DNA of 49,082 nucleotides from positions 1 through 49,082 of the IMG/VR virus record IMGVR_UViG_3300017971_000371; one strand, given 5' to 3'. The stretch comes from a virus. A program made the position numbers and the translations under genes. Every line of letters begins with the position of its first letter. The first letter of the stretch is position 1. This document shows, piece by piece, positions 4,878 through 49,082 of the stretch. The notes below the pieces were generated by a model, which was given only the letters and a program-made list of their open reading frames with translations, ran no database searches and was not told where the DNA came from.

Positions 4878-7550
4878 CTACTCCATGAGTTCGCTCTCGT
4901 CGCCGAGAGTAGAAAGCCCGAGTTGCCAACCTTCCACGGGGACCGGCGCCGTCGGTCCGGTGACCCGCTTCAAGTGTGTGTGTGCCGGTTTCATGTAGTC
5001 CGCGATCCTCCGAATGATCTGCTCTTCTATAGATGATAGTGGATCGCTTGATACTACGTCAAAGCAGTAGAGCGTATACGAATCCCCCGGCGCGAGTTCG
5101 GCTCCGCCCGAGCCGCCGATCGCGCCCGTCGGGAAGTCGAGCACCGTCGCCGCCGTTCCGCCGAGCGCCTCGACGATCGAATCGACTCCGACCGTGTCCG
5201 ACTCAATCACGACTCGCGCCGCGTCGCTCCCTGTCGCGAGGGTAGTCGGTAGACCGAGCACCGCTTGAAGGGCGCCCGCCGCCACCTGTAGCGATTGCCC
5301 CGCGCCATAGACCAGCGTCATGATCTCCAACACGCCGCCCGTCCCCGCGCCAGCGACAACCCCGCTCGATTGATTGTTGATCTTCTCCGCCACGTCGAGC
5401 GCGTCGGTCTCGGTGCCGTCGAGGGTGACCGTGTAGCTGGACCCGTTGACCGTGAAGCTGAACGAGTCCCCCGGCGAGATAATCCACGGGGGCGCGATCG
5501 TCCCCGTTACGATCGCGCGCGTCCCGATGAGCGGAGCATACGCGCCGCCCCCCAAGAGTTGCGCCTCGATAGCCGTCGCGACTTCCTCCGCCTCCGCCGC
5601 GGAGGGCGTTACGAAGTCGACGCCAGCCGTCGAGGAGAACGTGAGCCGCTGAACGATCCGCCCGTCGGCGGTCGCGTCCGGTATCGCGGAAGCCACCGGG
5701 ATGATCGTCACGCCGCCGACCTCCGCCGCGCCGGGAGCCGCGACCGTATACGTCCCATCATTGCCGGTGCTCTCGACCACGCGGAACACGCGACCCGTAA
5801 GGAACTCCGACGCCCGCTCCCCGAGGATCGTGAAATCCTGATCAGGAACCGAGACCGCCGAGATCGAGGAGCCGCCGTCGATCGCCACGTAGAGATCGCG
5901 ATCGACCCCTGAAAAGTCGTAGGTCTCCGCCGCGCCCGAAACGATCTCCGCTTGCGCCCCCTCCCCGAGTTCGTCGACCCCGAGAACCCAACCGTCGCTT
6001 ATGTAGTCGACGACCTCGACCTCTTTCCCCAAGAGAAAACGAACCACGCTCTCGACGCCGACCGCCGTCCCCTTGAGCTTGTAGATCGAAACGAGCACGC
6101 GCAAGAGCTTGCGCTTTTCGAGCGCCGTGAGTTCGAGATCCGTCCATGCCGCGAACGGGTTCCCCACGTCGTAGAGCATCGCGTCGATCTGATCGTCGGT
6201 CGCCTTGTCGGGATCGTATTGATCGGTGAAGCGGTCGACCTCGTATGTGATCAGATCGAGCGCCTCTTGAAGCACATTGATAAACCGTCGGAGGTGACCC
6301 GTTCCCGCGTTGTCTTGCTCGCGGTTGACCAGCGGGATGAACTTCCACAAATCCCACCGACGCCCCTCGGGGATCGTGGGTTGGAATCCCGCGAACGCCG
6401 CCGTTGTCCAATCGGGATCGATCGCGTTGCCGCTCACGTCTTCGACGTCGCCGTCGACGGTCAAGAGGTAGTCGGCGAGGGGGGTCATCTCCCAGTTGAG
6501 CGTTAGATCAAACTCTTCGCCCGCCGCGCCCGCGGTAGTATCGGCTACCGCCACCGAGACAACCGACAAGTTGACCGCCGCCGTCGGTGGCGTCGTCTGT
6601 CGCGCGATCGTGAAGTTGTCCTCGGAGAGCACGGAGAGCGACGACCCCGTCGCGACCGTCGTCGGGAACCCGAGGATCGTGTTCGCGTCGCCCCCGGTGA
6701 CTTGCATCGTCACGCTGTCGCCTACCTCGTCGCTCAAAAGGTGGACGTAACCCGACACCGCGATCGCGCTCGCCCCATCGAGAGAGGCGCTCAACACGCT
6801 CGCGACTTCCTCCGCGGTAGCGTTCGACGGGTCAATGAAGTTGGACAAGAGGAAGGTCGCGGTTTGCGCGCTCCCTCCCTCGACCCTCGCGTCGAGAGTC
6901 TCACCGCCCGAGAAGTTGAACGGCTCCGCGAGCGTGCTCACGATCGTCGCGTTGCCGCCCTCGGGGTCGTCTTGCATTTCTTCGTTGAAGCGGACCCTCA
7001 CGGTTTTCTGATCGATCGGCTCCGCGCTCACAAGACGCGGCGCGGTGAGATCCTCCGCGGTGAAGTAGTAGGTTTCGGAGATCGTCGGCGACGTTGGCGG
7101 ACCCGACCCGAACGCGCCGGTCCCGAACGGACCGAAGCCGAAGCCGCCCGTCGCGCCAGCCGACACGCGCACGCCGACAACTTGCTCCGAAGAGAGAACC
7201 GCGGGCGACTGATCGCAAGTTACCTCGATGTAGAGATACGGGTCGGTCGCGGAGCTTTGCGCGGTAGTGCTCCCCGCTCCCGTCCAAGGCGCGGCGAAGC
7301 TGGCTCCGTCGAAGGCGACGACAAACCCGCTCCCGAGATCGATCTCGACTTGCATCGTGAAGCCGGTCGGGGGCGCCGCGGGATCGCCGTCCAGATCGAC
7401 GACTCTCGCGGTGACCGTCGAGGAGATCGCGATCCCCGTTTCGTCCGGTTGCGGGTCTCGCAAAATGATCGCGTACCGACCCGCAACGACCACGCCCTCC
7501 GCGTCGTCGACGGAAAGGAGCGCGATAAGTTGGTCAACCGTGAGGGGCAT
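4878..7550 (-). CDS. Baseplate tail protein I (P2 gpI-like) with large insertions
   Basis: In P2-like phages gpI joins the baseplate wedge to the fibres. The family core is split here. Residues about 395-525 carry its first part (WDLWKFIPLVNREQDNAG, ALEKRKLLRVLVSIYKLKGT, SVVRFLLG). The end (IEEQIIRRIADYMKPAHTHL, about 840-860) carries the conserved PAHT. Between them, about 540-820, sit beta modules resembling the flagellar-hook IN motif (693-775 is clearest). Another lies at about 207-305, preceded by an Ig-like strand pattern (PRLVSAEPIDQKTVRVRFNE). Length 890 residues against about 180-250 for P2-type gpI. The start is fixed by CGGAGGATAG before ATG; that TAG is the stop of the preceding gene. 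Confidence 0.8.
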   Translation of the reverse strand: MPLTVDQLIALLSVDDAEGVVVAGRYAIILRDPQPDETGIAISSTVTARVVDLDGDPAAPPTGFTMQVEIDLGSGFVVAFDGASFAAPWTGAGSTTAQSSATDPYLYIEVTCDQSPAVLSSEQVVGVRVSAGATGGFGFGPFGTGAFGSGPPTSPTISETYYFTAEDLTAPRLVSAEPIDQKTVRVRFNEEMQDDPEGGNATIVSTLAEPFNFSGGETLDARVEGGSAQTATFLLSNFIDPSNATAEEVASVLSASLDGASAIAVSGYVHLLSDEVGDSVTMQVTGGDANTILGFPTTVATGSSLSVLSEDNFTIARQTTPPTAAVNLSVVSVAVADTTAGAAGEEFDLTLNWEMTPLADYLLTVDGDVEDVSGNAIDPDWTTAAFAGFQPTIPEGRRWDLWKFIPLVNREQDNAGTGHLRRFINVLQEALDLITYEVDRFTDQYDPDKATDDQIDAMLYDVGNPFAAWTDLELTALEKRKLLRVLVSIYKLKGTAVGVESVVRFLLGKEVEVVDYISDGWVLGVDELGEGAQAEIVSGAAETYDFSGVDRDLYVAIDGGSSISAVSVPDQDFTILGERASEFLTGRVFRVVESTGNDGTYTVAAPGAAEVGGVTIIPVASAIPDATADGRIVQRLTFSSTAGVDFVTPSAAEAEEVATAIEAQLLGGGAYAPLIGTRAIVTGTIAPPWIISPGDSFSFTVNGSSYTVTLDGTETDALDVAEKINNQSSGVVAGAGTGGVLEIMTLVYGAGQSLQVAAGALQAVLGLPTTLATGSDAARVVIESDTVGVDSIVEALGGTAATVLDFPTGAIGGSGGAELAPGDSYTLYCFDVVSSDPLSSIEEQIIRRIADYMKPAHTHLKRVTGPTAPVPVEGWQLGLSTLGDESELME

Positions 7551-8019: not shown

Positions 8020-9423
8020 CTATAAGTACAGGTTAGCGTTTGCCACGTTGTACGGGCTCGCCTCGTAATTGGTCACGTTCGCATGTATCCCGAGGTTCAT
8101 CCGACAATGAGTGATCAGCGCCGAGTATGCGGCGGCGGCGTAGACACAGAATCCCGCGCCTGAACCCGCCTCGATAGCGGCACCAAAAATTTCGGCGCCG
8201 GTCGCGACCACCTCGAAGGGCGCGAGGGTGTTCGTCGTCCTGAAGCGCCCACCGCTAACGATTCCGTTCGCGCCTATCTCGATCGCCAGCGTCGCCGCAA
8301 GACACTCGCAATCAATCATTCTGCCGCCCGAACTGACTCGGATCCCCCCCTCGTCGAAGCGGCACCCGAGCATGATTCCGCTCATTGATTGACCGCCGAA
8401 CGAGTCGGTCCCCGCGACGCACCTCTCGGCGCGCCCGCTGAACGATCCGTCGGAAGGCGTCGACCCCGCTCCGAACGAGTTGTCGCCGCCCTCGCAATCG
8501 TAAGCCTCGCCGGTGAATGCGCTGATCGACTTCGACGTCGGGCCCGAGCCGAACGAGTAGTTCCCCGCGGTGCAAAATCGCGCCACGCCCTCGAACCTTC
8601 CCTCGACCCCCCCCGAGTCTTGCGCCGAATAGCCGAAGCAATTATTCCCGCCCTCGCACCGCTCCGCGTAACCCGAGAAGATCCCGTCGCCAGCCGCCGC
8701 CGAGCCAAACGAATCGTTGCCTCCCTTGCAATCGTACACCTCGCCCGAGAGCGTTACGCCGGAAGCGACGTTACTCCCGAAAGAGTATTGACCGCCCGAG
8801 CAATGGCGCGCGATCCCGCTGAACTCTTGACAGCGAAGGAAGGATTGCGTCGGCTCGGCGTGACAGTGCTCCCAGTAACCGCCGATGCCCAGATACGTAC
8901 CCGAGAGCCAGCACCCGACGGCGTTGGAGTCGACGAGGTTCTCGACGTAGAGATCGCGGAACTGGGAATCGCTCGCGCTGGTCGCCGAGTCGATCCGCAA
9001 CGGATAGCCGCCCGCGCTCCCGTCGGCGTCGAGTTCGATCCTCAACCCTTCGAGTCTCACGTCTTGCGCCGTTACCTCGACCGTGTAGCTCGCACCGTTC
9101 CCGTGGTGAACGTAGGTCTCGGGCTTTTGCACGACCACGCCGTCGATCGAACGGCACGACCCGAACCCCTTCACGTCGACATAGTCGGTGTCGAGTTGAA
9201 GCCCCGAGTTGCCGATGTCGTAGTCGCCGGGAGGAAGCAACACAAGAACGCGATTGTCCGCGGTCGGCGAGAGGTTCTTCGCGTAGCCGAGAAACTCGTG
9301 AAGGTAAAGACCGTTGAGGATAGGGTTCGAACCCACGGGGACGCGGAACACACGTTGATCCGCCCCGACCCCGTAATCGCCGGGGTTGAGGGTGAATTTG
9401 ACATCGAGGATTGTTGCCGCCAT
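8020..9423 (-). CDS. Cysteine-ladder beta-helix tailspike-like protein (short paralog)
   Basis: The product is 467 residues; AGGAGAGCGCG precedes the ATG. The first part (NRVLVLLPPGDYDIGNSGLQ, then LDTDYVDVKG) is the entry to a right-handed beta-helix of the pectate-lyase-like type. From about residue 190 there are at least six repeats of about 27 residues with the pattern F-S-G-x-A-x-x-C-x-G-G-x-x-S-F-G, for example FSGYAERCEGGNNCFGYS and FTGEAYDCEGGDNSFGAG. One cysteine and one SFG recur at the same place in each coil, so a stacked ladder is expected. The next gene upstream encodes a longer paralog. No catalytic residues can be named. A role as tailspike or fibre tip is inferred. Confidence 0.75.
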   Translation of the reverse strand: MAATILDVKFTLNPGDYGVGADQRVFRVPVGSNPILNGLYLHEFLGYAKNLSPTADNRVLVLLPPGDYDIGNSGLQLDTDYVDVKGFGSCRSIDGVVVQKPETYVHHGNGASYTVEVTAQDVRLEGLRIELDADGSAGGYPLRIDSATSASDSQFRDLYVENLVDSNAVGCWLSGTYLGIGGYWEHCHAEPTQSFLRCQEFSGIARHCSGGQYSFGSNVASGVTLSGEVYDCKGGNDSFGSAAAGDGIFSGYAERCEGGNNCFGYSAQDSGGVEGRFEGVARFCTAGNYSFGSGPTSKSISAFTGEAYDCEGGDNSFGAGSTPSDGSFSGRAERCVAGTDSFGGQSMSGIMLGCRFDEGGIRVSSGGRMIDCECLAATLAIEIGANGIVSGGRFRTTNTLAPFEVVATGAEIFGAAIEAGSGAGFCVYAAAAYSALITHCRMNLGIHANVTNYEASPYNVANANLYL

Positions 9424-9432
9424 CGCGCTCTC

Positions 9433-11535
9433 CTAATTGCGGACGCTGGCGTCGACCAAGTTGGGCGCCGACGCGAAGAGGTTTGTCACGTTGATCGAGA
9501 TCGGCTTGCTCAATGAGCAGAACGAGATCCTCGCGTTCTGCGAGCCGCTCGAATCGATCGACATCGAATAAGTGGTCGCCGCTTGGATCTCCGTTTTGTC
9601 GATCAGCGGAGCCGACGACGAGGTTGTGATCAAGAGAGGAGCCGCGCTCAACGCGTCGCTTGCGCGTATCCGCGAGAACTTGATTTGCAATCCGCTTCGA
9701 ACGCCGATCGCGTGAACCGTCTCTTGAGCGGTACACTCCCAAATTATTTTATTGACCTGCGAGGTCGTTCCGCCCGTCCCCCCGAACGCATACGCCGCGG
9801 CGATGCAGCGGATCGCCGTCCCCGCGAAATCGCCATTCGCGCCGAAGCCCGCGCCCGTAACCTCGCAATCGCGGGCGAACCCGAAGAACTGATCGTTGCC
9901 AATGGGGACCGGCCCCGAAGCTCCGAACGCGTAGCCGGTAGCCTTGCATCCGGTGAGGAGAGCGGAGGTCGCGACGTGACCCGCCACGGTAGCCGAAGGC
10001 GCGCGCGAAGCTCCGAACGCGTAGTCTCCCGCCGAGCAGTTGAGAGCCGTCCCCGAGAACGAACCTTGCGCCCCGTAGGAAAATCCGAACGTGTAGTCTC
10101 CCGCCTCGCAATCGCGGGCGTCGCCTGAGAATGTGCCGTTGCCCACGTTGGCGGCACCGAACGATGAGCTTCCGCTCCGACAACGCCGGATCGTTGCGCT
10201 GCACTCCGCCGAGCCGTTGTCGCAGTAGCCGAACGAACCCGAACCACCCGTCGAGCCGTTGTCGCAGTCGTCGAGGAAGCCGCCACACAACACGCTGTAA
10301 CTGCCCGCGCCGTTGAAACTCGAACCGAACCCACTCGACGACACCTGACACCGCACGGCATATCCGGCGAACGTGGCGTTCCCTCCGCCCATCGTAGCGC
10401 CGAACGACCCGAGCCCCGCGAAACAATCCTGCGCGTACCCAGTAAACGCGACGTCGACCTCGGTCCCCGTGTCCGAGTTGCCCGCGAAACTTCCCGCCTG
10501 TCCAACGCACCGGAAGAACGTCCCCGCCGTGTTGGTTTGCCAGATAAAGCCGGGGATATCCGCGACGCAATCTTGCCAGAACCCATCGATCCTTCCGACC
10601 GTGTCCGACTGAACGGCGACCGGATTCGGCGACGCGCCCGACGTGAAGACGAGCCCTTGATACCGCGACGCCGCGGCGTAAGAAGCCACGTTGATCATGA
10701 AGCACGTCGCGGACGGCGTCCCCTGCTCGACGGTTATGTTCGAGAGGCGCACGTCTTCGACGGTTTGGTTCAGCACCGATGCGCCGATCCCCATGATATA
10801 GGCGCCGGTCTTGAACGTGGAACCGCCAAAGGTGCGCGCGGCACCGGGGCAAAGTCCGTACAGATCGACATAGTCGGTGTCGAGGTTGAGGGTCGCACTT
10901 TCCAGATCATAGACCCCGTAAGGGATCAAGACCTGTGCTCGGTTGTTCGCGCCCAGCGACTTGCCCGCGGGCGTGAGGAGCTTCGCCGCCGCGTATGCTT
11001 CGAGGAGCTTCACGCCGTTCTCGGCGGCGTCCGCGCCATGCTCCACAACGATGACCGAGTCGTCGGGGAATGCCACGCCGCCCGCCCCGTCCGCGAACCG
11101 CGATTGAACGAACTTCACCTCTTGATTGTTGCCGTTATAGAGACCGAGGATCAGCGCGCCCGAGGGCGGCGTCGCCGACTCTTGAAGCGCGAGGGTCTCG
11201 TCTACCAAAGGCCATGATGACGGGATCACGTAGAGCGAACGGATCTCGCTCGTCGAACCAAACGACAACGATCCGATCGGGATGTCGATCGCCTTGAGCC
11301 CGGTTCGGTGAGAGAACACGTAAAATTTTTCGGACCATTGGAGGTCGTAGCCTCCGGCCCCGTCGTCGACCACTTCCACGTCGCCGCCGCCCGTGAAGAT
11401 CAACGAGTTCTCCTCCCGGTTACGGAACGCTTGAAGATCGACCGAGTTGATCATCGCCTCGAATTTTGCATACCAGGGATCGTCGCCTGAACTCGGCCAG
11501 GGTATCCCAAGATAAGGAGTCGTGTTACCAGCCAT
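9433..11535 (-). CDS. Cysteine-ladder beta-helix tailspike-like protein (long paralog)
   Basis: ATG at 11535 (MAGNTTPYLGIPWPSSGDDP) is preceded by GAGGAGGGTTGATC. The open frame extends further upstream but overlaps the previous gene and lacks a site. The product is 700 residues. Residues 1-165 form an N-terminal virion-binding part, beginning with the TPYLGIPWP motif seen at many fibre N-termini. Residues 170-230 (NRAQVLIPYGVYDLESATLN, LDTDYVDLYG) match the helix entry of the shorter paralog. Residues about 360-600 carry ten or so coils with repeated Cys and FG (C371, C396, C452, C476, C500, C530, C557, C577, C600). The two genes look like a tandem duplication followed by change in coil number. 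Confidence 0.78.
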   Translation of the reverse strand: MAGNTTPYLGIPWPSSGDDPWYAKFEAMINSVDLQAFRNREENSLIFTGGGDVEVVDDGAGGYDLQWSEKFYVFSHRTGLKAIDIPIGSLSFGSTSEIRSLYVIPSSWPLVDETLALQESATPPSGALILGLYNGNNQEVKFVQSRFADGAGGVAFPDDSVIVVEHGADAAENGVKLLEAYAAAKLLTPAGKSLGANNRAQVLIPYGVYDLESATLNLDTDYVDLYGLCPGAARTFGGSTFKTGAYIMGIGASVLNQTVEDVRLSNITVEQGTPSATCFMINVASYAAASRYQGLVFTSGASPNPVAVQSDTVGRIDGFWQDCVADIPGFIWQTNTAGTFFRCVGQAGSFAGNSDTGTEVDVAFTGYAQDCFAGLGSFGATMGGGNATFAGYAVRCQVSSSGFGSSFNGAGSYSVLCGGFLDDCDNGSTGGSGSFGYCDNGSAECSATIRRCRSGSSSFGAANVGNGTFSGDARDCEAGDYTFGFSYGAQGSFSGTALNCSAGDYAFGASRAPSATVAGHVATSALLTGCKATGYAFGASGPVPIGNDQFFGFARDCEVTGAGFGANGDFAGTAIRCIAAAYAFGGTGGTTSQVNKIIWECTAQETVHAIGVRSGLQIKFSRIRASDALSAAPLLITTSSSAPLIDKTEIQAATTYSMSIDSSGSQNARISFCSLSKPISINVTNLFASAPNLVDASVRN

Positions 11536-11537
11536 GA

Positions 11538-12665
11538 TCAACCCTCCTCGGAGATCAAGCGGAACGCTACCTCGTGATTTCCGAGGAGCCTCCGCACGGG
11601 GGCGAAAAAGTCTGTCCACGTCCGCCGCTCGCTTGCGCTTACGGGTCGCGAGACATAGACCTCGCCGTCGATCAAAATTTGCATGAGCCAGTGAATATCG
11701 AGCGCGGTCGGCGCCGCCTGTAGTGCTGCGAGATCGGCTTGGTGTTGCGCGAGCCCGTGATAGGTGTTCGACAACCGCACGCTATCGATCGCCCCCCACA
11801 AGTCGGGGTCGGCGATCTGGATCGCCCCGTCGGGGTAGGGGTTGAACGGACCGACCCCGAACGCCGAGAACCCCACGTCGACCAACGCGCCATCGACGAA
11901 CAGATCGAAAGCGTTCCCCACGCCCGCCCACGATACCGTGAAGAAATGCCATCCCGAGCTTGCGGTGATAGTGAATGCGCCCGTGTTGCTCGACGAGGAG
12001 ACCCCGAAAAATCCGTGAGTCACGGAGATCAACCACGAATGCGCGCCGGGACCGACGGCGCCCGAGAGCGCGATCTTCAACCCGCTCGCGAACGGCGAGT
12101 CGGTGAGCATGAAGATCACGGGGTCGACACCCGACGATCCGACGTGAGAGTCGGCGTCGAAGTTGAGCAGGAAGTCGACCGAGTAGGCGGAGAGCGCCCC
12201 GCTCCAAACCTCGGGCTCGTTGCCCCCGTCGAGTTGACCAGCGAACGAGAGCGCGGGGATCTCGCGACACAAACCCGCCGCGGCGCCGAACGTCTCTCTC
12301 GCTTGGCGCAACGCGGGAACCCCGGTCAAGTGGTGCGCGCCGGGGGCGTCGTCGAGGGCGCCGCGCGAGTTGCTGTTCATCGGGTAGTTGAGCAGGGTAT
12401 CCGAGAGCGTCGGAAGTTGCGCGGGCTTGAGCACACCGGGATCGGCGGGCGCCCGAGTGTCGAACGTGGCGCCGACGAGATCGACATCTTCGAGGTTGAC
12501 CGTTTGCTTGATCTCGGTGAAGTCGCCGCCCGTGATCAACGCGCGCTCGATCAGCGCCTCCGCCCCGAGCGCGAACACGAACGACCCGTCGGGAGCGGTG
12601 AAGGTCGAGGGCTCGATCCTCCCGCTCTTCGTGGCTCGGTAGTGGTCGAAATCTGTCGCGCTCAT
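11538..12665 (-). CDS. Lectin-like (LamG/ConA-type) baseplate or fibre protein
   Basis: The product is 375 residues; GAGAGGG precedes the ATG, with one TACGGGTCG-family copy (12665-12673) inside the spacer. Residues about 110-310 have the strand order of a laminin-G/concanavalin-type sandwich: a domain entry (LLNYPMNSNSRGALDDAPGA), a middle beta-sheet (YSVDFLLNFDAD), W-H-F-F-TVSW, LFVDGALV, and the closing DPDLWGAIDSVRLSNTYHG. The final part (ALDIHWLMQILIDGEVYVSR and following) is separate. Such domains bind sugars, so host-surface contact is likely but inferred. It sits among fibre genes downstream of baseplate J. Confidence 0.65.
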   Translation of the reverse strand: MSATDFDHYRATKSGRIEPSTFTAPDGSFVFALGAEALIERALITGGDFTEIKQTVNLEDVDLVGATFDTRAPADPGVLKPAQLPTLSDTLLNYPMNSNSRGALDDAPGAHHLTGVPALRQARETFGAAAGLCREIPALSFAGQLDGGNEPEVWSGALSAYSVDFLLNFDADSHVGSSGVDPVIFMLTDSPFASGLKIALSGAVGPGAHSWLISVTHGFFGVSSSSNTGAFTITASSGWHFFTVSWAGVGNAFDLFVDGALVDVGFSAFGVGPFNPYPDGAIQIADPDLWGAIDSVRLSNTYHGLAQHQADLAALQAAPTALDIHWLMQILIDGEVYVSRPVSASERRTWTDFFAPVRRLLGNHEVAFRLISEEG

Positions 12666-13417: not shown

Positions 13418-16400
13418 TTAGAACACCTCACCGAGCCACTTATCTTCCGTGAAGGTCTCCGCCAAACGGTAACCGGGCGCCGGGGGCGCTGGCGCGTCGT
13501 TTGGCGGAACGTGATCGAACTCCGCGGTTGTGGTCGAGTAGTCTGTCAATTCATCCTTCCAAACCGCCGACGCGTCGTTCGTCCACCCCTTCAACGTCAC
13601 GCGGTCGACGTAAGTGCCCGACCCGATCGACGTGTCGAACTCCGCGGCCCCCCAATTGTACGGCAACGCGAAGAGACCCGAAACCGGATCGTTGACCACT
13701 TCATAGATCACGAGCCCCCATTGTTCCGCAAGATAATACGATCCGCTCGGATCATACGGTCCGGTCGATCCACTATCCCAGGCGTCCGCGGGGATCTTCA
13801 ACTCCGAGCGCGACCCGTTAGGACCAATGCCGATCAGCCCGAGGGTTTCTCGGGCGTCCTGATCGAAGTAGAGCCGATCGGATCTCGGGGTGGACAGGAT
13901 AGCGAACTCGGAGATCGACGACGTGGAACCGTCCCATCCTAACCAGATCCCTTCCTGCTCGCCGTCCTCGCTCTCCCATGTACCGAACGTCAACCCCGAG
14001 GTGTCGCCGCTTAGAGCGGCGACCAGGGCGCTTTGAAGCTCGGCGACGAGGGCGCTCGCGCTGGCGTAGCTCCCCGCCGTGATCGGCAACTCAAGGACAC
14101 GGAACCCGGCGACCGGCGCGATCGTCCCCCATCCCAGGGTTAGGCGGTTACGGGTCGCGCCCACCCCGAGCGGGAAGGTCAACGCGCTCGAATAGAGCCG
14201 ACCGTCGCCAGCGGTGCCGGGGGTCAAGGCGTCCGCGGTGTAGGGGGTGGTCAACATCGGGAGAACGTCGTTCTCCCACCCCTCGACGAACCCTTCGAAC
14301 GCGCGCGTCCAATCGTGCGACCACGGGGCGCCCTGGTCTACCGAGGAAGTGAATCCCCCCGGCGTATACGTGAACGCCTCTCGCCACGGTTCGCCGATCC
14401 AATTCGGAGGAACGTGGAACTCGTCGCCCCAAACCTCGAACCCCTCGAAGGTCTCCGAGCCGCCCGTGAACTCTCCCGTCGTGACGTTCGAGAAGTCAGT
14501 GAGAAGCTCAGACCATCCGACGTCGTTCGCACCTTGCGAGGTCGTAGCGTCCGTGAAGCCGAGCACGACCGCCGCCGCTTGTGCGATATCGACCGAAAGC
14601 GTCGAGCCCTCTCCGTCGCTTGAGGAGCGCACCGCGACGAACTCGCCGAGCCACGGGAACGCGTCCCCGCCCTCGATCAAATCGTTCAGCGCCGCGCACA
14701 CCTCCGCCGCGGTAGCGTTCGCGGGATCTTCAAACGTCGCGACCGCGGGATCGATCGTGACAAGCTGGCCCACGCCGTCGATCGTTACGCCGAACGCCTT
14801 CGCGGAGGAAAAGTCGAACGGCTCCGCGTTGGAGCCTATCTTGATCGCGCGTGTCCCGAGGTGATCCCAATCTTCCCACGGGGCGCGCAAGCGCTCAACG
14901 TAGGCGGTGAACTCCGCCCATGCCGCCGCCACTTGTTGAGAGATCCACTCCCACGCCTCCGCCTCCCCCACGCGCCCGCTGGTCGCCTCAATCTCGAAGC
15001 TCGGGTTCTCGAAGGGGGTCGGGATTTCCTCGGGAGAGAACGCCGCTCCGAGCGCCTCGTCGGTCATTGGCTCTTGATAGATCACCGCGCCGCCGAACGT
15101 GCCCCGGTAGCCTTGCCGCATCGGGAAATATGCGGCGTGAGTCGCGGGCCCGAATGAGATCGCGTCGGTTGCGTTTCGGGCGATCTCCGCGTCGTCAACC
15201 TTGAGGGTCGCGAGGGTCACGCCGTCGACAACGACCCGTAAGGTCCGATCGTCGAAGCCAGCCGCGGCGCCCTCGTCGCCTGTCCAAGCGATCCCGAGTT
15301 CGAGTTGCTTCCCGTCGTAATCGCCGGGGGCGAACGGGGCCCTCGCCTCGACGAAGCTCGCCGAGCCTAGCGAATAGATCGTCGCGACTAGCTCCTCGGT
15401 CTTCGCATCCCAGTAGAGCGCGAAGCCGTTGTCGACTTGCGGATCGCCGACGAGGAACGTCCCCCCCATCGTTATCAGTTGGCAATACTGAAAACCGAAA
15501 GCGAGCCCCTGGAAATAGAACAGATCTTGAAGCCCGAACCTCCCGACTATCGCGAAGGGTTCCCCGATCCCCTTCCATGCTCCGTCTGCTCGGAGCAAAG
15601 GTCGGGGAGAGATCGTCGTGTTCTCGATCAGCACGGTCGACCCCGAGGGAACGGAAGAAACAACGGACCACTCGTCGACCTCGACGACCGAGTTCCACGC
15701 CACGTCAACGACCCGTAAGGACACCGGCGCTCCGAAGTTGGAGCCGATCGGGACGTGGATCAGATCCGCCGCGGGGAAGAACAGATCGCCATCTTCCCCA
15801 AGGTCGCCGTCGTATGCTTGGCGGTTACGGGTCGCCAGCCGGTTTATGATCCACGGCTCGAAGCGATCGACCTCGACCTCGTTGAACCAATGAACGAGCA
15901 CGTCCGCCCCACTACCGAAGACCTCGGTCGCGCCAGCGAAGAGCCTCGCGACCATCCCCGCTTGTTGCCAGTTTGAACCGATCGGGGCGGGCAACGTTTG
16001 GAAGATCGTCGTCAAGTCGATCGGGCCCACCGAGGAGATCGCGATCCATGTCGAGCCGTTGTGATACTGCGCGGTCACCGTCGCCGCCGTCGGCGTCCCA
16101 CTGAACACGAGGCGCGCTTCACCGCTCGTCACGCCATCCCACGGGATCGACACATGCGCCGCCGCGGGGAGCCCCGCCCAACCATTCGGATCGTCGACGC
16201 TCGCGAAGTGATACTTCCAGAACCCGAGGTCGCTCGCCGCCTTGCCGTGGAGCGCCGCCCACTCTCTCGCCGCCGCTTGATTGAACGGGGAGACCAGCGC
16301 CGCGAACGCGCCGTCGTAAGAGCCGCGAGCTTGCGCCAAGAACCGGATATCGGCGTCGCCCCACTTCACGCGCAAGGTTGGATCGAAGCCGAGCGATTGA

Positions 16401-16756
16401 CCGCCGATCCACCCGCGGAGGTACGGACCCCACGCGCGCGATATGTAAAACTCGTTGAACGAGTCGCCTCGCATGATCGGTGTGAGCGGCTCTCCGCCTA
16501 AATAGGTTGACGTCTCGGGCATCTCCCCCGACGCCTCGACGCCGTTCCCTTCCTCTACGCCCGCGCCGTCCTCGAAGCGGTTGAGGTTCAGATATTGAAC
16601 GGCTTGGCTATTGTAGGGGAAGACGATCCCCTCGATTCCGACGGCGCGCTCGAACTTGTCCAGATCGGACGCGTCGAGAACGAGAGAGGGATCACCGGGA
16701 TTCACAACGAGGTCGGCGTTGTCCTCGGGTAACCACCAATGCGTCGGATAGCTCAC
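13418..16756 (-). CDS. Very large baseplate-associated protein with lectin-like and IN-like modules
   Basis: The product is 1112 residues from a GTG start behind AGGAAGGGG. No single family covers it. Residues about 395-565 look like a LamG-type sandwich (LYWDAKTEELVATIYS, LELGIAWTG, LRVVVDGVTLATL, FGGAVIYQEPMTDE). Residues about 640-740 are one copy of the IN-like module shared with the sheath, gpI and spike (EPFDFSSAKAFGVTIDG, DPANATAAEVCAALNDLIEG, SVDIAQAAAVVLGF). The second half is tryptophan- and glycine-rich and includes a second, weaker module (about 885-985, ending ARETLGLIGIG). It follows the baseplate J gene by 12 bases, so a wedge extension that carries fibres is the most economical idea. 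Confidence 0.65.
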   Translation of the reverse strand: MSYPTHWWLPEDNADLVVNPGDPSLVLDASDLDKFERAVGIEGIVFPYNSQAVQYLNLNRFEDGAGVEEGNGVEASGEMPETSTYLGGEPLTPIMRGDSFNEFYISRAWGPYLRGWIGGQSLGFDPTLRVKWGDADIRFLAQARGSYDGAFAALVSPFNQAAAREWAALHGKAASDLGFWKYHFASVDDPNGWAGLPAAAHVSIPWDGVTSGEARLVFSGTPTAATVTAQYHNGSTWIAISSVGPIDLTTIFQTLPAPIGSNWQQAGMVARLFAGATEVFGSGADVLVHWFNEVEVDRFEPWIINRLATRNRQAYDGDLGEDGDLFFPAADLIHVPIGSNFGAPVSLRVVDVAWNSVVEVDEWSVVSSVPSGSTVLIENTTISPRPLLRADGAWKGIGEPFAIVGRFGLQDLFYFQGLAFGFQYCQLITMGGTFLVGDPQVDNGFALYWDAKTEELVATIYSLGSASFVEARAPFAPGDYDGKQLELGIAWTGDEGAAAGFDDRTLRVVVDGVTLATLKVDDAEIARNATDAISFGPATHAAYFPMRQGYRGTFGGAVIYQEPMTDEALGAAFSPEEIPTPFENPSFEIEATSGRVGEAEAWEWISQQVAAAWAEFTAYVERLRAPWEDWDHLGTRAIKIGSNAEPFDFSSAKAFGVTIDGVGQLVTIDPAVATFEDPANATAAEVCAALNDLIEGGDAFPWLGEFVAVRSSSDGEGSTLSVDIAQAAAVVLGFTDATTSQGANDVGWSELLTDFSNVTTGEFTGGSETFEGFEVWGDEFHVPPNWIGEPWREAFTYTPGGFTSSVDQGAPWSHDWTRAFEGFVEGWENDVLPMLTTPYTADALTPGTAGDGRLYSSALTFPLGVGATRNRLTLGWGTIAPVAGFRVLELPITAGSYASASALVAELQSALVAALSGDTSGLTFGTWESEDGEQEGIWLGWDGSTSSISEFAILSTPRSDRLYFDQDARETLGLIGIGPNGSRSELKIPADAWDSGSTGPYDPSGSYYLAEQWGLVIYEVVNDPVSGLFALPYNWGAAEFDTSIGSGTYVDRVTLKGWTNDASAVWKDELTDYSTTTAEFDHVPPNDAPAPPAPGYRLAETFTEDKWLGEVF

Positions 16757-16768
16757 GCTCGCCCCTTC

Positions 16769-18304
16769 CTAGATCTGCGTCGACGTTGCACCGTTGATCA
16801 AGACCACCGTCCCGAGCCGCGGGAATTGGTGATTCGAGATCGGCACGTCGTCAGAAACGCCGTTGAGTAAGAAATCGTCGGGACCGGCTCCGATCTTTCG
16901 AACACCGGGAACGTCGCGAACCACGTTGAAGATGTCCGACCACGAAATCTCCCCCGCGGGGTTGCCGTCCGCGTCCTTGTAGTTGTAGCCGAAGTCGACG
17001 TTCGCGTTCGCGGTCCCGTCGTCTTCGAGCGGCTCGAACCAATCGACGAGCGCCGCTTGAATCGCCGCCTTGACAGCGGTCGCCGAGTAACCTTCGCGGA
17101 GCCAGATCGTCGCCCGAACGTCAACGTCGAGATACGCGGGATCGAGAACCTCGACTTGAAACGTGATCGTGTTCGGATAGGTCTCGGTAACCATCGCCAG
17201 AACCGACGCCTTGAGAGCCGCGCTCGGCGTGCTCCCGCTCGACGGTATCACGTAGAGCCGCCCGTGATTCTCGCTGATCCCCGTGTCCTCGTTCGACGAG
17301 AGCATGAGCGCGCGACCTACGCCGGGAACGCGTAGAGCGTTGATCTCGTAGTCCTCGCGGGCGACCGTGCGGTTCAACACGCGGAGTGATTGCGGCGCCA
17401 ACGAGCGAGCCGCCTCGACGGTCTCCCTCTCCGCTCCCCCCGCCGCCGCCGCCGCGTTCGTGCTTCGCAGATAAGCGGGATTCCCGAGCGAGTCGGAGAA
17501 CGTACCGACGAGCTTGACGAGAGACGCCGCGTCGACGTTGCCTTCGAGCCCTCCGCCCGTCTTATAGTCGGCGGTTATGGTGTCCCCGTCGGGCGGGATC
17601 TTCCCGTTCGTGCCGTCGCCGAAGCCGATCGTCGCGTGATCGTTCTGGTCAACCGAGACCGTGAAGTGGAGATCGTTCGGACCGCTTTCGAGGAAGTTGT
17701 CGACCTCCGTCCACCCCGTCGGGTAGCTGGTCGTCGAGATCTCGATCGACCCGTCGAGGTACGGGGAGAACGGGAGGAACTTCTCTTGATCGGCGAGACC
17801 ATCCGACGTGAAGACCGTTTGCTTTGTGAGAGAGTGCTCCCATTGCACATCGACCGTGAGGCTCCCCGCGGGAATCACGGGATCGCCCGAGCCGTCCCAC
17901 CCTATGATCTCGCCCTTGATCGGATCGGTGACTTCGAGGGTTTGAATCACTGAGCCGAGAGGGACCGGCACGTCGCCCGCGAGCGGTCCGTTCGCAAGCG
18001 TGATCGTGCAATCGGCGGTCGCGGCGCTGGCGCCGCTCAACTCGTAGCCGATCAGCTTGGCAAGCGCGATCGCGTTGCGCCTGAGTTGCACGAAACCCCA
18101 TCGGCCCTCGGGCGCTTGGTTGTCTTGGTAGTAGATCAACACGTCGAGGACGAACGCAAACATTTCGAGGATCACGTTCCCGAAATTGGCGATCTCGAAA
18201 TCGGTCCACTCGGGGAAAACGCTCTTCGCTAAATCGATCAAGCGCGAGCGCATCGCGTCGAAGTCCTTGTCGGTGTAGTCGTAATTTTCGGGAAGGATCG
18301 ACAC
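16769..18304 (-). CDS. Baseplate wedge protein J (gp6-like)
   Basis: The product is 511 residues from GTG at 18304 behind GGAGGTAACA. The N-terminus has the classic baseplate J layout: DKDFDAMRSRLIDLAKSVFP, then WTDFEIANFGNVILEMFAFV, then YYQDNQAPEGRWG and RRNAIALAKLIGYEL. This is followed by a beta domain and later IGFGDGTNGKIPPDGDTITA and ETVEAARSLAPQSLRVLNRT, also typical. J forms the wedge ring that opens during sheath contraction. Its start codon is two bases from the stop of the gp25-like gene. The assignment is secure by motif order and by its neighbours (gp25, gpV, gpI). Confidence 0.92.
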   Translation of the reverse strand: MSILPENYDYTDKDFDAMRSRLIDLAKSVFPEWTDFEIANFGNVILEMFAFVLDVLIYYQDNQAPEGRWGFVQLRRNAIALAKLIGYELSGASAATADCTITLANGPLAGDVPVPLGSVIQTLEVTDPIKGEIIGWDGSGDPVIPAGSLTVDVQWEHSLTKQTVFTSDGLADQEKFLPFSPYLDGSIEISTTSYPTGWTEVDNFLESGPNDLHFTVSVDQNDHATIGFGDGTNGKIPPDGDTITADYKTGGGLEGNVDAASLVKLVGTFSDSLGNPAYLRSTNAAAAAGGAERETVEAARSLAPQSLRVLNRTVAREDYEINALRVPGVGRALMLSSNEDTGISENHGRLYVIPSSGSTPSAALKASVLAMVTETYPNTITFQVEVLDPAYLDVDVRATIWLREGYSATAVKAAIQAALVDWFEPLEDDGTANANVDFGYNYKDADGNPAGEISWSDIFNVVRDVPGVRKIGAGPDDFLLNGVSDDVPISNHQFPRLGTVVLINGATSTQI

Positions 18305-26989: not shown

Positions 26990-29260
26990 CTAGGCGGCGA
27001 GGCTCTCTTCGAATGCCCGAGTGTCTTGGGTGACGATCAGGATTATGTATTCGGCGGGCTTGTTGGTCGCGAGCCCGATCCTGATCTTGAGTTCTCCCGC
27101 GAACTCGGTCGCGGGCGGGTTGAGCGCGTCGCTCACGTCGACGAAGAACGCCTCGGAGGGAACCGTCGAGCGGAACGCCCCCACGTTCATCTGCCGCGTG
27201 AGGAAGGCGACGATCGCGCGTCTCACGCGCTGGCGCAACACGCGGTTGTTCGGGCGGTGCTTGACCCAAACGAGCCCCTCCTTCAACGACTGCTCGATGA
27301 AAATCACACCGCGGCGCTCCCCGATATACGGGAAGTTGCCGCTCGACTTGAGCGTGCGACACCCGTCGATGTGGCGCGTCGTGCCGGGAAGCTGAGTGAT
27401 CGGGTTGATCCTCTTCGGATAGATCAGATCCCGCTTGCGCTCGTCGAGAACCTCGTCGGTCTCGAACCCGACGCACCCGACCACAACGCCCGCGTTCTGC
27501 TCGACGCCCGCGGGGTTGTCGTAGACTCCCCCGAGTCGCGAGTCGTTGCGCGCGTAGACGCCCGCGATGAACCCCGAGGGCGCGACCGCCAAGTTGTCGT
27601 CGGACCCGAAGACGTTCTTGTCGGGGTTCGTGATCTCGATCCGCGGCCAGTAGATCGCGGCGAACTCCGACTTCCCGAGGATCGCCGTCGTCGTGTCGAC
27701 GTAGGTCACCATCGCCGCCGCGGTCGGCACGCTCGCCAGCGGGGGCGGATCGAGGATCGCGAAGCACGAACCGCCGCGCCACGTCTCGCAGTAGTCGATC
27801 ATGTGGTTCGCGATCGCGTTGCCCGTCTTGCCGGGGATGATCAGGATTCGGAGTTGCTGAACGAGGTCGAGCGCATACGTCCCGTTTTTCGCGGTCGACG
27901 TCCCGATGAAATCGGTGTCGGCGATCCCCGAAAGACCGTCGCTCCCGCCCGTCATGGGGCCCCAATCCACGTAACCGCTTCCGGTCGGGTCGCAGTCGGG
28001 CTTCGCGACGTCGGGGTTGTAGGGGAGCCCCTGATCGGTCACGGCGATCAGGTTCGACCCGAGCGCTACGTGATTGACCACGGTCTCGACGTAGTTGTCG
28101 GCGGTCGAGTCCATCGTGAGGTTCGGGAAGGTCTCTTGAACGACGCCGCTCTTGATCACTTGGAGATTGAACTCGTCGACGTCCCCGCTCGAAGCGAGGA
28201 GCGTTCGGATCGTGAGGTCGTCGGTGTAAGCACCCTCGGTCTTGCCGTCGACCTTGAGCGTGTTCTCGGGAGTGGCGTCCGAGCCCGTGTGAAGGAGAAC
28301 ATCCATCCCGAGCGCCGCGGCGAGGTCGGGCGATCCCGCCGTGAGTTGGATCGTCTTCGTCGACCCCGTGAGATCGGTCGCGATCGAGAGTGCGTTCGTC
28401 CCGAGGATCGTCGCCGTCGAGTTCGGATCGGCGGCGTCGATCAGCGCCTTCATTTCTGTCGGCGTCACGTTGTCGACGTCGGCGACGTTGCCCGAGCCCG
28501 TGGTCGTTCCCGTCGGGAGGGAGATCAGCGCGGCGAGGTCGGTCCCCGCTCCCGCGGCGACGATCAGGGTCGCGCCCGATCCTTTCTGGTCGGTGTGAAC
28601 CACCGGAACGCCGCCCGCGACGACCGCGAAGCCGCCCGTGATCGAACCGTTGATCAGATTGGCGATATCGAGCGCGCTCGTCTCGCCGCCGACCGCGGTG
28701 ATCGTTTGGGGTCCGTTGCCGTCGCCCGTGTCGATCGACATATCCTCGCCACCGGCGAGAGCCGCGATCGGATACGCGGCGCCCGAGGTCGCGGTCGCGT
28801 CCGCGGCGGTCACTGTCGCGGCGTTGGGGCCCGCGAGGTCCGTCGTGATCCCCATCGTGTAACCGTTTTCGAGGTTCCACGGACCGGCGATCGTTCCGGT
28901 GACTACCGCGGCGGTCGCGGCGGCTCCCTCGTTCTGGAGCATTTGCGTTCCCTTGACCGCGGTGAAGCTGTTCTCGTCGAGGGGATCGGTATAGTGACAC
29001 GTCCTCACGACCCACAAGAACGAGCCGCCGTTGAGGAAGAACCCGTGCGCCGCCTTCGCGACCTCCGAGTTCGTGGTGAACCCGCCGAAGATTTCGACGT
29101 ATTCCTCCATCGACGTGACGAGGGTCGCGACTCCGATCGGACCTCTCTCGGTGACCCCGACAACGCCGGTGACGGCTGTCGGTTGCGCGGCGATTGCGGG
29201 AATACGCGGCGCCTCTTCCAGTATGACGATCTTTGCCGCAAGCAATTCGGTTGAAGCCAT
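26990..29260 (-). CDS. Contractile tail sheath protein with two inserted beta modules
   Basis: The product is 756 residues, longer than T4 gp18 (659). The start has the sheath signature: IVILEEAPRIPAIAAQPTAV, TGVVGVTERGPIGVATLVTS, MEEYVEIFGG. The C-terminal half has the conserved layers (YCETWRGGSCFAILDPPPLA, SEFAAIYWPRIEITNPDKNV, RRGVIFIEQSLKEGLVWVKH). Between them, about residues 122-258 and 260-330, two modules of the IN-like type are inserted (TSALDIANLINGSITGG, DLAALISLPTGTTTG; TPTEMKALIDAADPNS, DLAAALGMDVL). Insertions at this place face outward in known sheaths, so the modules may decorate the tail surface. GGGAGGATCGGATC precedes ATG. Confidence 0.93.
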   Translation of the reverse strand: MASTELLAAKIVILEEAPRIPAIAAQPTAVTGVVGVTERGPIGVATLVTSMEEYVEIFGGFTTNSEVAKAAHGFFLNGGSFLWVVRTCHYTDPLDENSFTAVKGTQMLQNEGAAATAAVVTGTIAGPWNLENGYTMGITTDLAGPNAATVTAADATATSGAAYPIAALAGGEDMSIDTGDGNGPQTITAVGGETSALDIANLINGSITGGFAVVAGGVPVVHTDQKGSGATLIVAAGAGTDLAALISLPTGTTTGSGNVADVDNVTPTEMKALIDAADPNSTATILGTNALSIATDLTGSTKTIQLTAGSPDLAAALGMDVLLHTGSDATPENTLKVDGKTEGAYTDDLTIRTLLASSGDVDEFNLQVIKSGVVQETFPNLTMDSTADNYVETVVNHVALGSNLIAVTDQGLPYNPDVAKPDCDPTGSGYVDWGPMTGGSDGLSGIADTDFIGTSTAKNGTYALDLVQQLRILIIPGKTGNAIANHMIDYCETWRGGSCFAILDPPPLASVPTAAAMVTYVDTTTAILGKSEFAAIYWPRIEITNPDKNVFGSDDNLAVAPSGFIAGVYARNDSRLGGVYDNPAGVEQNAGVVVGCVGFETDEVLDERKRDLIYPKRINPITQLPGTTRHIDGCRTLKSSGNFPYIGERRGVIFIEQSLKEGLVWVKHRPNNRVLRQRVRRAIVAFLTRQMNVGAFRSTVPSEAFFVDVSDALNPPATEFAGELKIRIGLATNKPAEYIILIVTQDTRAFEESLAA

Positions 29261-48790: not shown

Positions 48791-49082
48791 TTAGAAATTC
48801 GGATCTTCCCCGAAGTGGAACGGATCTTTCTCGGGCTCTCCCTCGGGGGCGTTCATGTCCGCGGGCCAACTGAAATCAGCGTCGGGCGCGGGTGTCGGCG
48901 CGGGCTCGGGTTCCGGTGTCGGCGCGGGCTCGGGCTTGGTCTCGACCGGGTTCGGTGCGGGCGCCGGTGCGGGCGTCGGCGCCGGGGTCGGCTCGGGCGT
49001 CGGCTCGGGCGTCGGGGTCGGGGTCGGGGTCGGCTCGGGCGCCGGGGCCGGCGCGGGCGCGGGCGTCGGCGCCGGTGCGGGC
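48791..49082 (-). CDS. C-terminal end of a Pro-rich protein, possibly the portal
   Basis: The frame is open from the window edge to TAA at 48791; the start is outside. Ninety-six codons remain. The first 55 or so are an almost unbroken X-Pro dipeptide chain, with X being Ala, Thr or Glu; then comes NPVETKPEPAP and a folded-looking end DADFSWPADMNAPEGEPEKD followed by PFHFGEDPNF. Ala/Glu/Thr-Pro chains are stiff linkers. The portal gene normally lies directly upstream of the prohead protease, so this may be its C-terminal tail, but no portal motif is visible. Confidence 0.7.
   Translation of the reverse strand, partial: PAPAPTPAPAPAPAPEPTPTPTPTPEPTPEPTPAPTPAPAPAPNPVETKPEPAPTPEPEPAPTPAPDADFSWPADMNAPEGEPEKDPFHFGEDPNF

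Follow-up and report, generated by a model that had tools for sequence, protein, structure and literature searches.

The window analysed here, 49,082 nucleotides of IMG/VR virus record IMGVR_UViG_3300017971_000371, contains two adjoining genes that probably encode tail spike or tail fibre proteins, in each of which a ladder of buried thiols would serve to pack the core of a β-helix. Both open reading frames lie on the minus strand, the first encoding a short coil protein, P0001 (467 amino acids, positions 8020..9423), and the second a long one, P0002 (700 amino acids, positions 9433..11535). The long gene starts with the ATG at 11535, two bases past the stop of an upstream 375-amino acid gene, and the short gene starts 9 bases after the long-gene stop. 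The pair is sited in a tail and baseplate module, with a baseplate J-like gene upstream (16769..18304, minus strand; Baseplate_J, 9.4e-16; baseplate wedge phrog_6, 2.1e-32) and a gene for a putative tail protein I on the other side, downstream (4878..7550, minus strand; Tail_P2_I, 0.0015, below the cut-off of that family). A tail sheath gene in the window (26990..29260, minus strand; phrog_23, 5e-37; phrog_17610, 3.5e-59) identifies the virus as a contractile-tailed phage. We infer that both coil proteins are located in the virion and bind the host surface. Searches of P0001 and P0002 against Pfam, NCBIfam and PHROG models gave nothing beyond one weak DUF match (E 0.059).

Each protein is predicted to follow the same plan, a conserved N-terminal cap leading into a right-handed parallel β-helix of Cys/SFG coils and then a C-terminal end. 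For the short protein, the cap contains the entry segment common to it and the long protein and covers about amino acids 22–186 (8866..9360, minus strand; limits approximate, pLDDT mostly 60–96); the LDTDYVD entry motif within it, placed by alignment to the long protein, occupies amino acids 77–83 (9175..9195, minus strand). The ladder coils follow at amino acids 187–377 (8293..8865, minus strand) and the C-terminal end at 378–467 (8023..8292, minus strand), the final residues of which are similar to those of the long protein; confidence is low from about amino acid 390. The long protein has its cap at about amino acids 158–322 (10570..11064, minus strand; approximate limits from the alignment and the model), the identical LDTDYVD motif, aligned to that of the short protein, at 218–224 (10864..10884, minus strand), ladder coils at 323–604 (9724..10569, minus strand) and a low-confidence C-terminal end, aligned with that of the short protein, at 605–700 (9436..9723, minus strand). 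The presence of two neighbouring genes with a common entry segment, as given in a preliminary description of this DNA, was thus confirmed. Only the long protein has a separate N-terminal domain (amino acids 1–157; 11065..11535, minus strand; pLDDT mostly <50), which matches the N-terminus of a 1740-amino acid relative at locus L010 (28% over 96 amino acids, E 2e-8), and as a putative virion anchor could attach the long protein to the particle.

The recurrence of one Cys and one FG in the coils was assessed by counting the motif C-x6-FG. It occurs six times in the short protein (C208, C232, C256, C284, C310 and C335) and nine times in the long one, eight of these inside the coil region and one at C229, against a shuffling expectation of 0.12–0.24 on average and 3 at most (20,000 shuffles). 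The repeated coil is therefore real. Its length had been put at 24–27 residues and is slightly more variable, at 24–28 residues in the short protein and 20–30 in the long. The number of coils, first estimated as at least six and about ten, depends on how they are counted: the motif gives six and eight (plus C229), and the structural models described below give more, with 9 consecutive rungs in the short protein and 12 in the long.

AlphaFold2 predicted a right-handed parallel β-helix for both proteins, with coils built from parallel strands PB1–PB3. The short model is a β-solenoid with pLDDT 80.1 and pTM 0.82, and the long model has pLDDT 69.9 and pTM 0.68, with coil blocks mostly at 85–97; over the five models, mean pLDDT spanned 74.6–80.1 (short) and 66.8–69.9 (long). 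These are single-chain models made from shallow alignments of 29 (short) and 24 (long) rows, in which repeats readily align out of register. In both, DSSP assigned each rung as a strand, two turn residues and a strand, the cysteine being the second residue of the turn T2 between PB2 and PB3. This holds for every rung of the short protein (C187, C208, C232, C256, C284, C310, C335, C354 and C372) and for the 12 of the long protein (C323, C343, C371, C396, C424, C452, C476, C500, C530, C557, C577 and C601); Cys440 of the short protein occupies the same T2 position outside its consecutive run. The structure prediction proposed earlier thus bears out both a solenoid and a ladder of aligned cysteines. 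Neither another fold nor cysteines on different faces was found, because the models are solenoids with a single cysteine register at the T2–PB3 corner, the inward side of which is deduced from the residue patterns given below. Two other repeat folds were considered and rejected. The commonest coil lengths, 20, 21 and 24–26 (415 spacings), and the separate strands in each coil do not suit a pentapeptide-repeat protein; for a leucine-rich repeat, LxxLxL is absent from the coils by eye, and each coil has several strands and no helix.

Relatives of the pair were found at 47 IMG/VR loci and four loci in bacterial metagenome-assembled genomes, and coil statistics were compiled from 492 coils in 46 proteins. 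P0001, P0002 and seven bacterial ORFs are part of this set, which leaves out 13 near-duplicate or same-contig entries (L006, L008, L016, L017, L027, L031, L034, L037, L038, L041, L043, L046 and L051). Relative to the cysteine, position −3 is hydrophobic in 99% of coils and position −7 in 80%, and positions −4, −2, −1 and +1 are polar in 70–90%. Residue volumes at −7 and −3 are compensatory (r −0.46, compared with −0.22 in within-protein shuffles, 0 of 2000 being as extreme). The IMG/VR loci were found with Cys-containing patterns, which guarantees one or more Cys coils in each of their proteins; the remaining coils were unselected. With a pattern that does not require Cys, the rung was cysteine in 249 of 250 coils; a looser pattern gave 417 of 433, with V, S, F, I or L accounting for 12 of the 16 replacements. 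Since the polar/hydrophobic alternation and the replacement residues agree, the rung cysteines would point into the helix. Each coil would then have three short strands around a narrow core made up of the central PB2 residue, an inner PB1 residue, the SFG Phe and the T2–PB3 corner Cys, and the stacked cysteines would form a buried free-thiol ladder that packs this core and holds the coils in register. The outer faces and T3 loops, which are variable, would provide the surface in contact with the host. A column so nearly invariant makes a good model for studying why a β-helix would need thiols in all of its turns. Ice binding was weighed because in many relatives the inner Phe is flanked by Thr pairs, but the window coils lack such pairs and the idea was dropped.

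Metal binding by the cysteines, or disulfide bonding between them along the helix, is very improbable. The rung is conserved beyond the apparent need of simple packing, as such a role would suggest, but there is one cysteine per coil in a single column, small or hydrophobic residues prevail among its replacements, and no acidic or His partner column runs alongside it in the 492 coils of the 46 proteins. Adjacent in-register residues on parallel strands have an unfavourable geometry for disulfide bonding, which counts against that part of the proposal. Still more speculative, and hardly to be expected, is that the thiols, up to 26 in an unbroken column, are themselves a working part, forming a soft-metal-binding or reversibly oxidizable wire inside the spike whose length is tuned by coil number; if it were so, spike stiffness or activity would depend on how oxidizing or reducing the host surface is.

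Comparison of the models with solved structures returned β-helix proteins as the top matches, among them the Sf6, Pam1, CBA120 and phi29 appendages. The short protein matched mannuronan epimerase AlgE6 (Z 21.1), the Sf6 tailspike (Z 20.9) and AlgE4 (Z 20.8), and the long protein matched the Sf6 tailspike (Z 18.1); no convincing sequence relative was found in the PDB (best E 0.14). The tailspikes of Sf6 (2vbe), cyanophage Pam1 (7eea) and CBA120 (TSP2) resemble the window pair in predicted fold (Z 16–21) and in belonging to a tail module, but there is no detectable sequence similarity, and the window family differs in having one near-invariant Cys per coil and a several-fold variation in coil number. 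Among predicted viral proteins, by far the best structural match was A0A6J5PWE7 (BFVD; 22% identity, E 9.6e-11), an uncharacterized protein of an uncultured Caudovirales phage.

Because the nearest solved folds are carbohydrate-active (AlgE6, AlgE4, Sf6, CBA120 TSP2 and several depolymerases), the pair might instead be tailspike depolymerases that cut host polysaccharide at an active site on the β-helix, the Cys ladder being merely scaffold. A precedent for the ladder is likewise an enzyme. In the fucoidan lyase FdlA (PMC9410043), the N-terminal domain is a β-helix with a five-rung Cys ladder inside it at the T2–PB3 juncture, lying under the groove and described as stabilizing. The corner and the spacing of one Cys per coil are those of the window proteins; however, FdlA is one protein with five rungs, whereas the window proteins have 9 and 12, their relatives up to 26, and the ladder is a family-wide rule. 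While the FdlA precedent favours a depolymerase, its description as stabilizing speaks against metal or disulfide chemistry. Catalysis does not follow from a common β-helix fold, no enzyme family match was found for the window proteins, and their core coils are Gly/Ser/Thr-rich and near-regular; the A-modules of AlgE4 and AlgE6, although among the top-ranked folds for the short protein, share 10% identity with it over the match and no family match. Depolymerase activity is accordingly possible but on the doubtful side. A repeated Cys ladder in a solenoid is also reported for InlJ, under the name of a "novel cysteine ladder", but that protein is a leucine-rich repeat of another fold. A literature search that covers subscription journals poorly turned up no paper on a Cys/SFG coil or on phage spikes with a Cys ladder.

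Ladder runs across the relatives range from 3 to 26 rungs, and comparison among related phages, as had been suggested, does show differing coil numbers. L025 and L040 are 92% identical over 3 kb aligned downstream (alignment A8, 63 of the 71 listed neighbours) and have 23 and 13 motif coils, respectively; for L039 and L048, with 96% identity over aligned upstream DNA (alignment A7, 67 of 67 neighbours), the numbers are 14 and 10. Coil-to-coil DNA identity in relatives reaches 97–99%, with coils 6 and 10 of L013 at 99% and coils 1 and 3 of L020 at 98%. Gain and loss of coils is thus supported in the relatives, where coil number differs despite similar flanks and caps and coil DNA can be near-identical. 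The suggestion that recombination between repeats alters coil number therefore fits the relatives, with their signs of recent coil duplication, but not the window itself. There, 15-residue coil cores share 31–78% DNA identity, Tandem Repeats Finder reported no tandem array inside either gene, and recent repeat expansion was rejected; with coils so diverged, no recent recombination is visible, and the coil DNA of this pair is old. A duplication of three coils within the short protein (1–3 resembling 4–6) was also set aside: an offset of three gave the best coil identity, but this is one of 15 possible pairings, and the DNA identity was 65%, vs 52% and 63% at other offsets.

Because every coil has the same register, coils could be added or removed with the caps intact, as has probably often happened in related phages. 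The wide range of coil number between similar caps, together with the very regular coil sequence of some relatives, could mean that the coils serve as a stalk or spacer of adjustable length, with the binding site in the caps, the C-terminal end or a partner protein. This is unlikely, although it merits consideration, because the coil region of L039 and L048 is the part that diverges most (18–40% identity over most of it, 80–95% at both ends), which fits a variable contact surface better than a neutral spacer. If the coils do contact the host, receptor variation may arise through coil changes, and the spread in coil number suggests a route for phages to change host reach or grip. With caps that change little while the number and surface of the coils vary, the family provides a natural length series for host-range tests that separate length from sequence.

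The two genes had been called tandem paralogs. They are adjacent and related (BLASTP E 7e-31, 28% identity), but their status as nearest relatives is not supported by a tree of the caps, built without L021, in which the short protein groups with L010 (83/85) rather than with its neighbour; both of the window proteins have long branches, united in only 20% of bootstrap trees. A tandem duplication within the phage lineage is suggested by their adjacency and kinship, by the recurrence of tandem sets elsewhere (three genes in L026, two in L029, four in L058 and two in L060) and by the clustering of the bacterial sets by genome, but given the tree we hold this origin only tentatively, as falling somewhat short of probable.

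No relative was found among named phages (INPHARED), a collection from which records close to the window may be missing. The expectation that such ladders are rare in phage spikes hence stands for named phages, but not for environmental phages, in view of the 47 IMG/VR loci. One pattern match, L009, had no ORF of at least 250 amino acids nearby and was set aside. In bacteria, the coil protein was found in one of 288 genomes from the phylum of G004, that one being G004 itself. Most relatives have a DxDYVD-like entry motif, and the family can be described as an uncatalogued modular domain with a simple rule, a cap, n coils and an end, present in numerous environmental phages as well as in a few secreted bacterial proteins. 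Most genes next to the relatives fall in no well-populated PHROG family, and some relatives adjoin baseplate wedge, tail fibre, tail spike or virion structural genes. One relative (L007/L008) lies directly behind a major capsid gene, and the bacterial relatives start with signal-peptide-like sequence and their N-terminal regions are unrelated; the coil module is therefore not confined to tails.

Tail sheath, tape measure, baseplate J and putative tail protein I are all encoded in the 49,082-base IMG/VR record, and the window is therefore assigned to a contractile-tailed phage. Between the genes for baseplate J and tail protein I, two tightly spaced genes on the minus strand encode the long protein (9433–11535, 700 amino acids) and the short protein (8020–9423, 467 amino acids), which are homologous (E = 7e-31) and have the motif LDTDYVD in common. 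The C-x6-FG motif occurs six times in the short protein and nine times in the long, one of the nine lying beyond the coil region, compared with a mean of 0.12–0.24 and a maximum of 3 over 20,000 shuffles. These values confirmed the preliminary description of paired tailspike-like genes with a common entry segment and a recurrent Cys/FG coil. Judged from genomic context, both products are most likely spike or fibre proteins, whereby the outer coil faces would contact the host surface and the thiol ladder would pack the core of the helix.

For prediction of the fold, AlphaFold2 models were built from family alignments. The short protein gave a pLDDT of 80.1 and a pTM of 0.82, and the long protein 69.9 and 0.68, respectively; in the latter, the coil blocks lay mostly at 85–97 and residues 1–157 mostly below 50. 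In line with the anticipated solenoid, both proteins were predicted to form a β-helix. Among solved structures, the short model matched AlgE6 best (Z = 21.1, rmsd 3.9, 313 residues aligned), followed by Sf6 tailspike (Z = 20.9, rmsd 4.7, 348 aligned), AlgE4 (Z = 20.8) and Pam1 tailspike (Z = 19.6); these scores differ little, and a common fold says nothing of function. The best solved match of the long model was Sf6 (Z = 18.1, rmsd 3.7, 325 aligned). Each modeled coil comprises PB1 (three residues), a two-residue turn that is often Ser-Gly, PB2 (three residues), a polar residue plus Cys, and PB3.

The suggestion that cysteines align on successive coils held in the models, where 10 of the 16 cysteines of the short protein (C187 to C372 consecutively, plus C440) and 12 of the 18 of the long (C323 to C601) occupy the second residue of the PB2–PB3 turn. 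A β-helix fold with a common Cys register is well supported by the models. Across 46 proteins, the rung was Cys in 249 of 250 coils recognized without demanding Cys, and in 417 of 433 under a looser pattern; the SFG motif was almost as invariant (Phe 274/279, Ser 249/279). By a sequence rule, the ladder register holds 635 of the 809 cysteines of these proteins, in runs of 3 to 26 (median 9), and relative L013 has all 26 of its cysteines within the ladder. Polar and hydrophobic positions alternate, and residue sizes at positions −7 and −3 relative to the rung compensate, which suggests that the rung Cys faces inward. The fucoidan lyase FdlA provides a published precedent: its five-rung Cys ladder, at this PB2–PB3 corner, is described as lying within the helix and as stabilizing (PMC9410043). 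The β-helix spike is itself an already known type, for which this Cys column is unusually strict. L013, L025, L033 and L044 carry long, regular coil arrays in which PB2 reads Thr-Phe-Thr; the paired Thr residues would form a flat row outside the helix. Similar Thr arrays occur in insect antifreeze proteins.

Searches with both proteins against Pfam, PHROG, NCBIfam, PDB sequences and INPHARED returned no match, apart from one weak DUF (E = 0.059). Scanning IMG/VR with the two-protein alignment located four loci, among them the L005 contig, which encodes long-protein residues 1–472 with 100% identity before it breaks off. With the coil alignment, 119 candidate stretches in IMG/VR yielded 48 relatives in 47 loci, and 44 candidates from a single scan of the genome collection yielded four loci, all MAGs (one bacterium, two Verrucomicrobia and one Hydrogenedentota). 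The bacterial coil proteins carry N-terminal stretches that by eye resemble signal peptides. The caps flanking the coils are conserved in phage and bacterial members alike, and a pattern search detected the entry motif in 40 of the 50 phage ORFs, with several more in which it was discernible. The coil protein L010:2193–7412 (1740 amino acids, 73 Cys) lies in a 194,905-base phage record. Those at L007:1757–3436 and L008:3755–5434 are encoded directly behind a major capsid gene, and their C-terminal part shows weak similarity to a tail sheath domain (E = 0.0049).

Coil lengths in the 46 proteins peaked at 20–21 and 24–26 residues. In one clade, defined by cap sequences with 100/100 support, coil number ranged from about 5 to 26. 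L025, L040 and L049 have 23, 13 and 12 coils with caps merely 0.01–0.05 changes per column apart, and over the aligned portion of the 3 kb downstream, L025 and L040 have 92% in common. L039 and L048 (14 versus 10 coils) have 96% of aligned upstream DNA in common, and their proteins are 80–95% identical at both ends versus 18–40% across most of the coil region. Near-identical coil DNA was found inside single genes (99% in L013, 98% in L020), and coil count was constant among near-identical viruses of different samples. Coil gain and loss is therefore faster than cap divergence and slower than divergence of near-identical genomes. On these sequence comparisons, a coil family that changes in coil number is well supported; in the window pair, no such gain or loss is visible.

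At least two coil genes lie side by side in the window, L026, L029, L058 and L060, and L061 encodes a single protein with two coil modules. Local duplication appears to have produced the bacterial tandem sets; the cap tree is undecided on such an origin of the window pair. An N-terminal domain is common to the long protein and L010 and is absent from the short protein, which may be attached by another route, at a guess via the long protein.

A gene of ~100–121 codons lies directly downstream of the coil gene in L012, L014, L015, L018, L025, L029, L032, L039, L040, L042, L048, L049 and L052, with a common C-terminal end GILNCRVN.EHKQIRF or a near variant, and 87-amino acid versions occur in L019, L020 and L044. 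None was seen in the window. The product is perhaps a chaperone or partner of the coil protein.

Upstream of the long gene, 11538–12665 encodes a 375-amino acid protein without matches in database searches, by eye resembling a lectin-type (concanavalin/LamG-like) β-sandwich. Parts of PHROG 15814 are matched by three window proteins: by the sheath (26990–29260) over its full length, and by the products of 4878–7550 and 13418–16756 over ~95–145 residues (E = 1.1e-9 and 0.0037); an inserted domain common to the three is possible. The end of the record (48879–49082) carries short, GC-rich tandem repeats with units of 6–30 bases.
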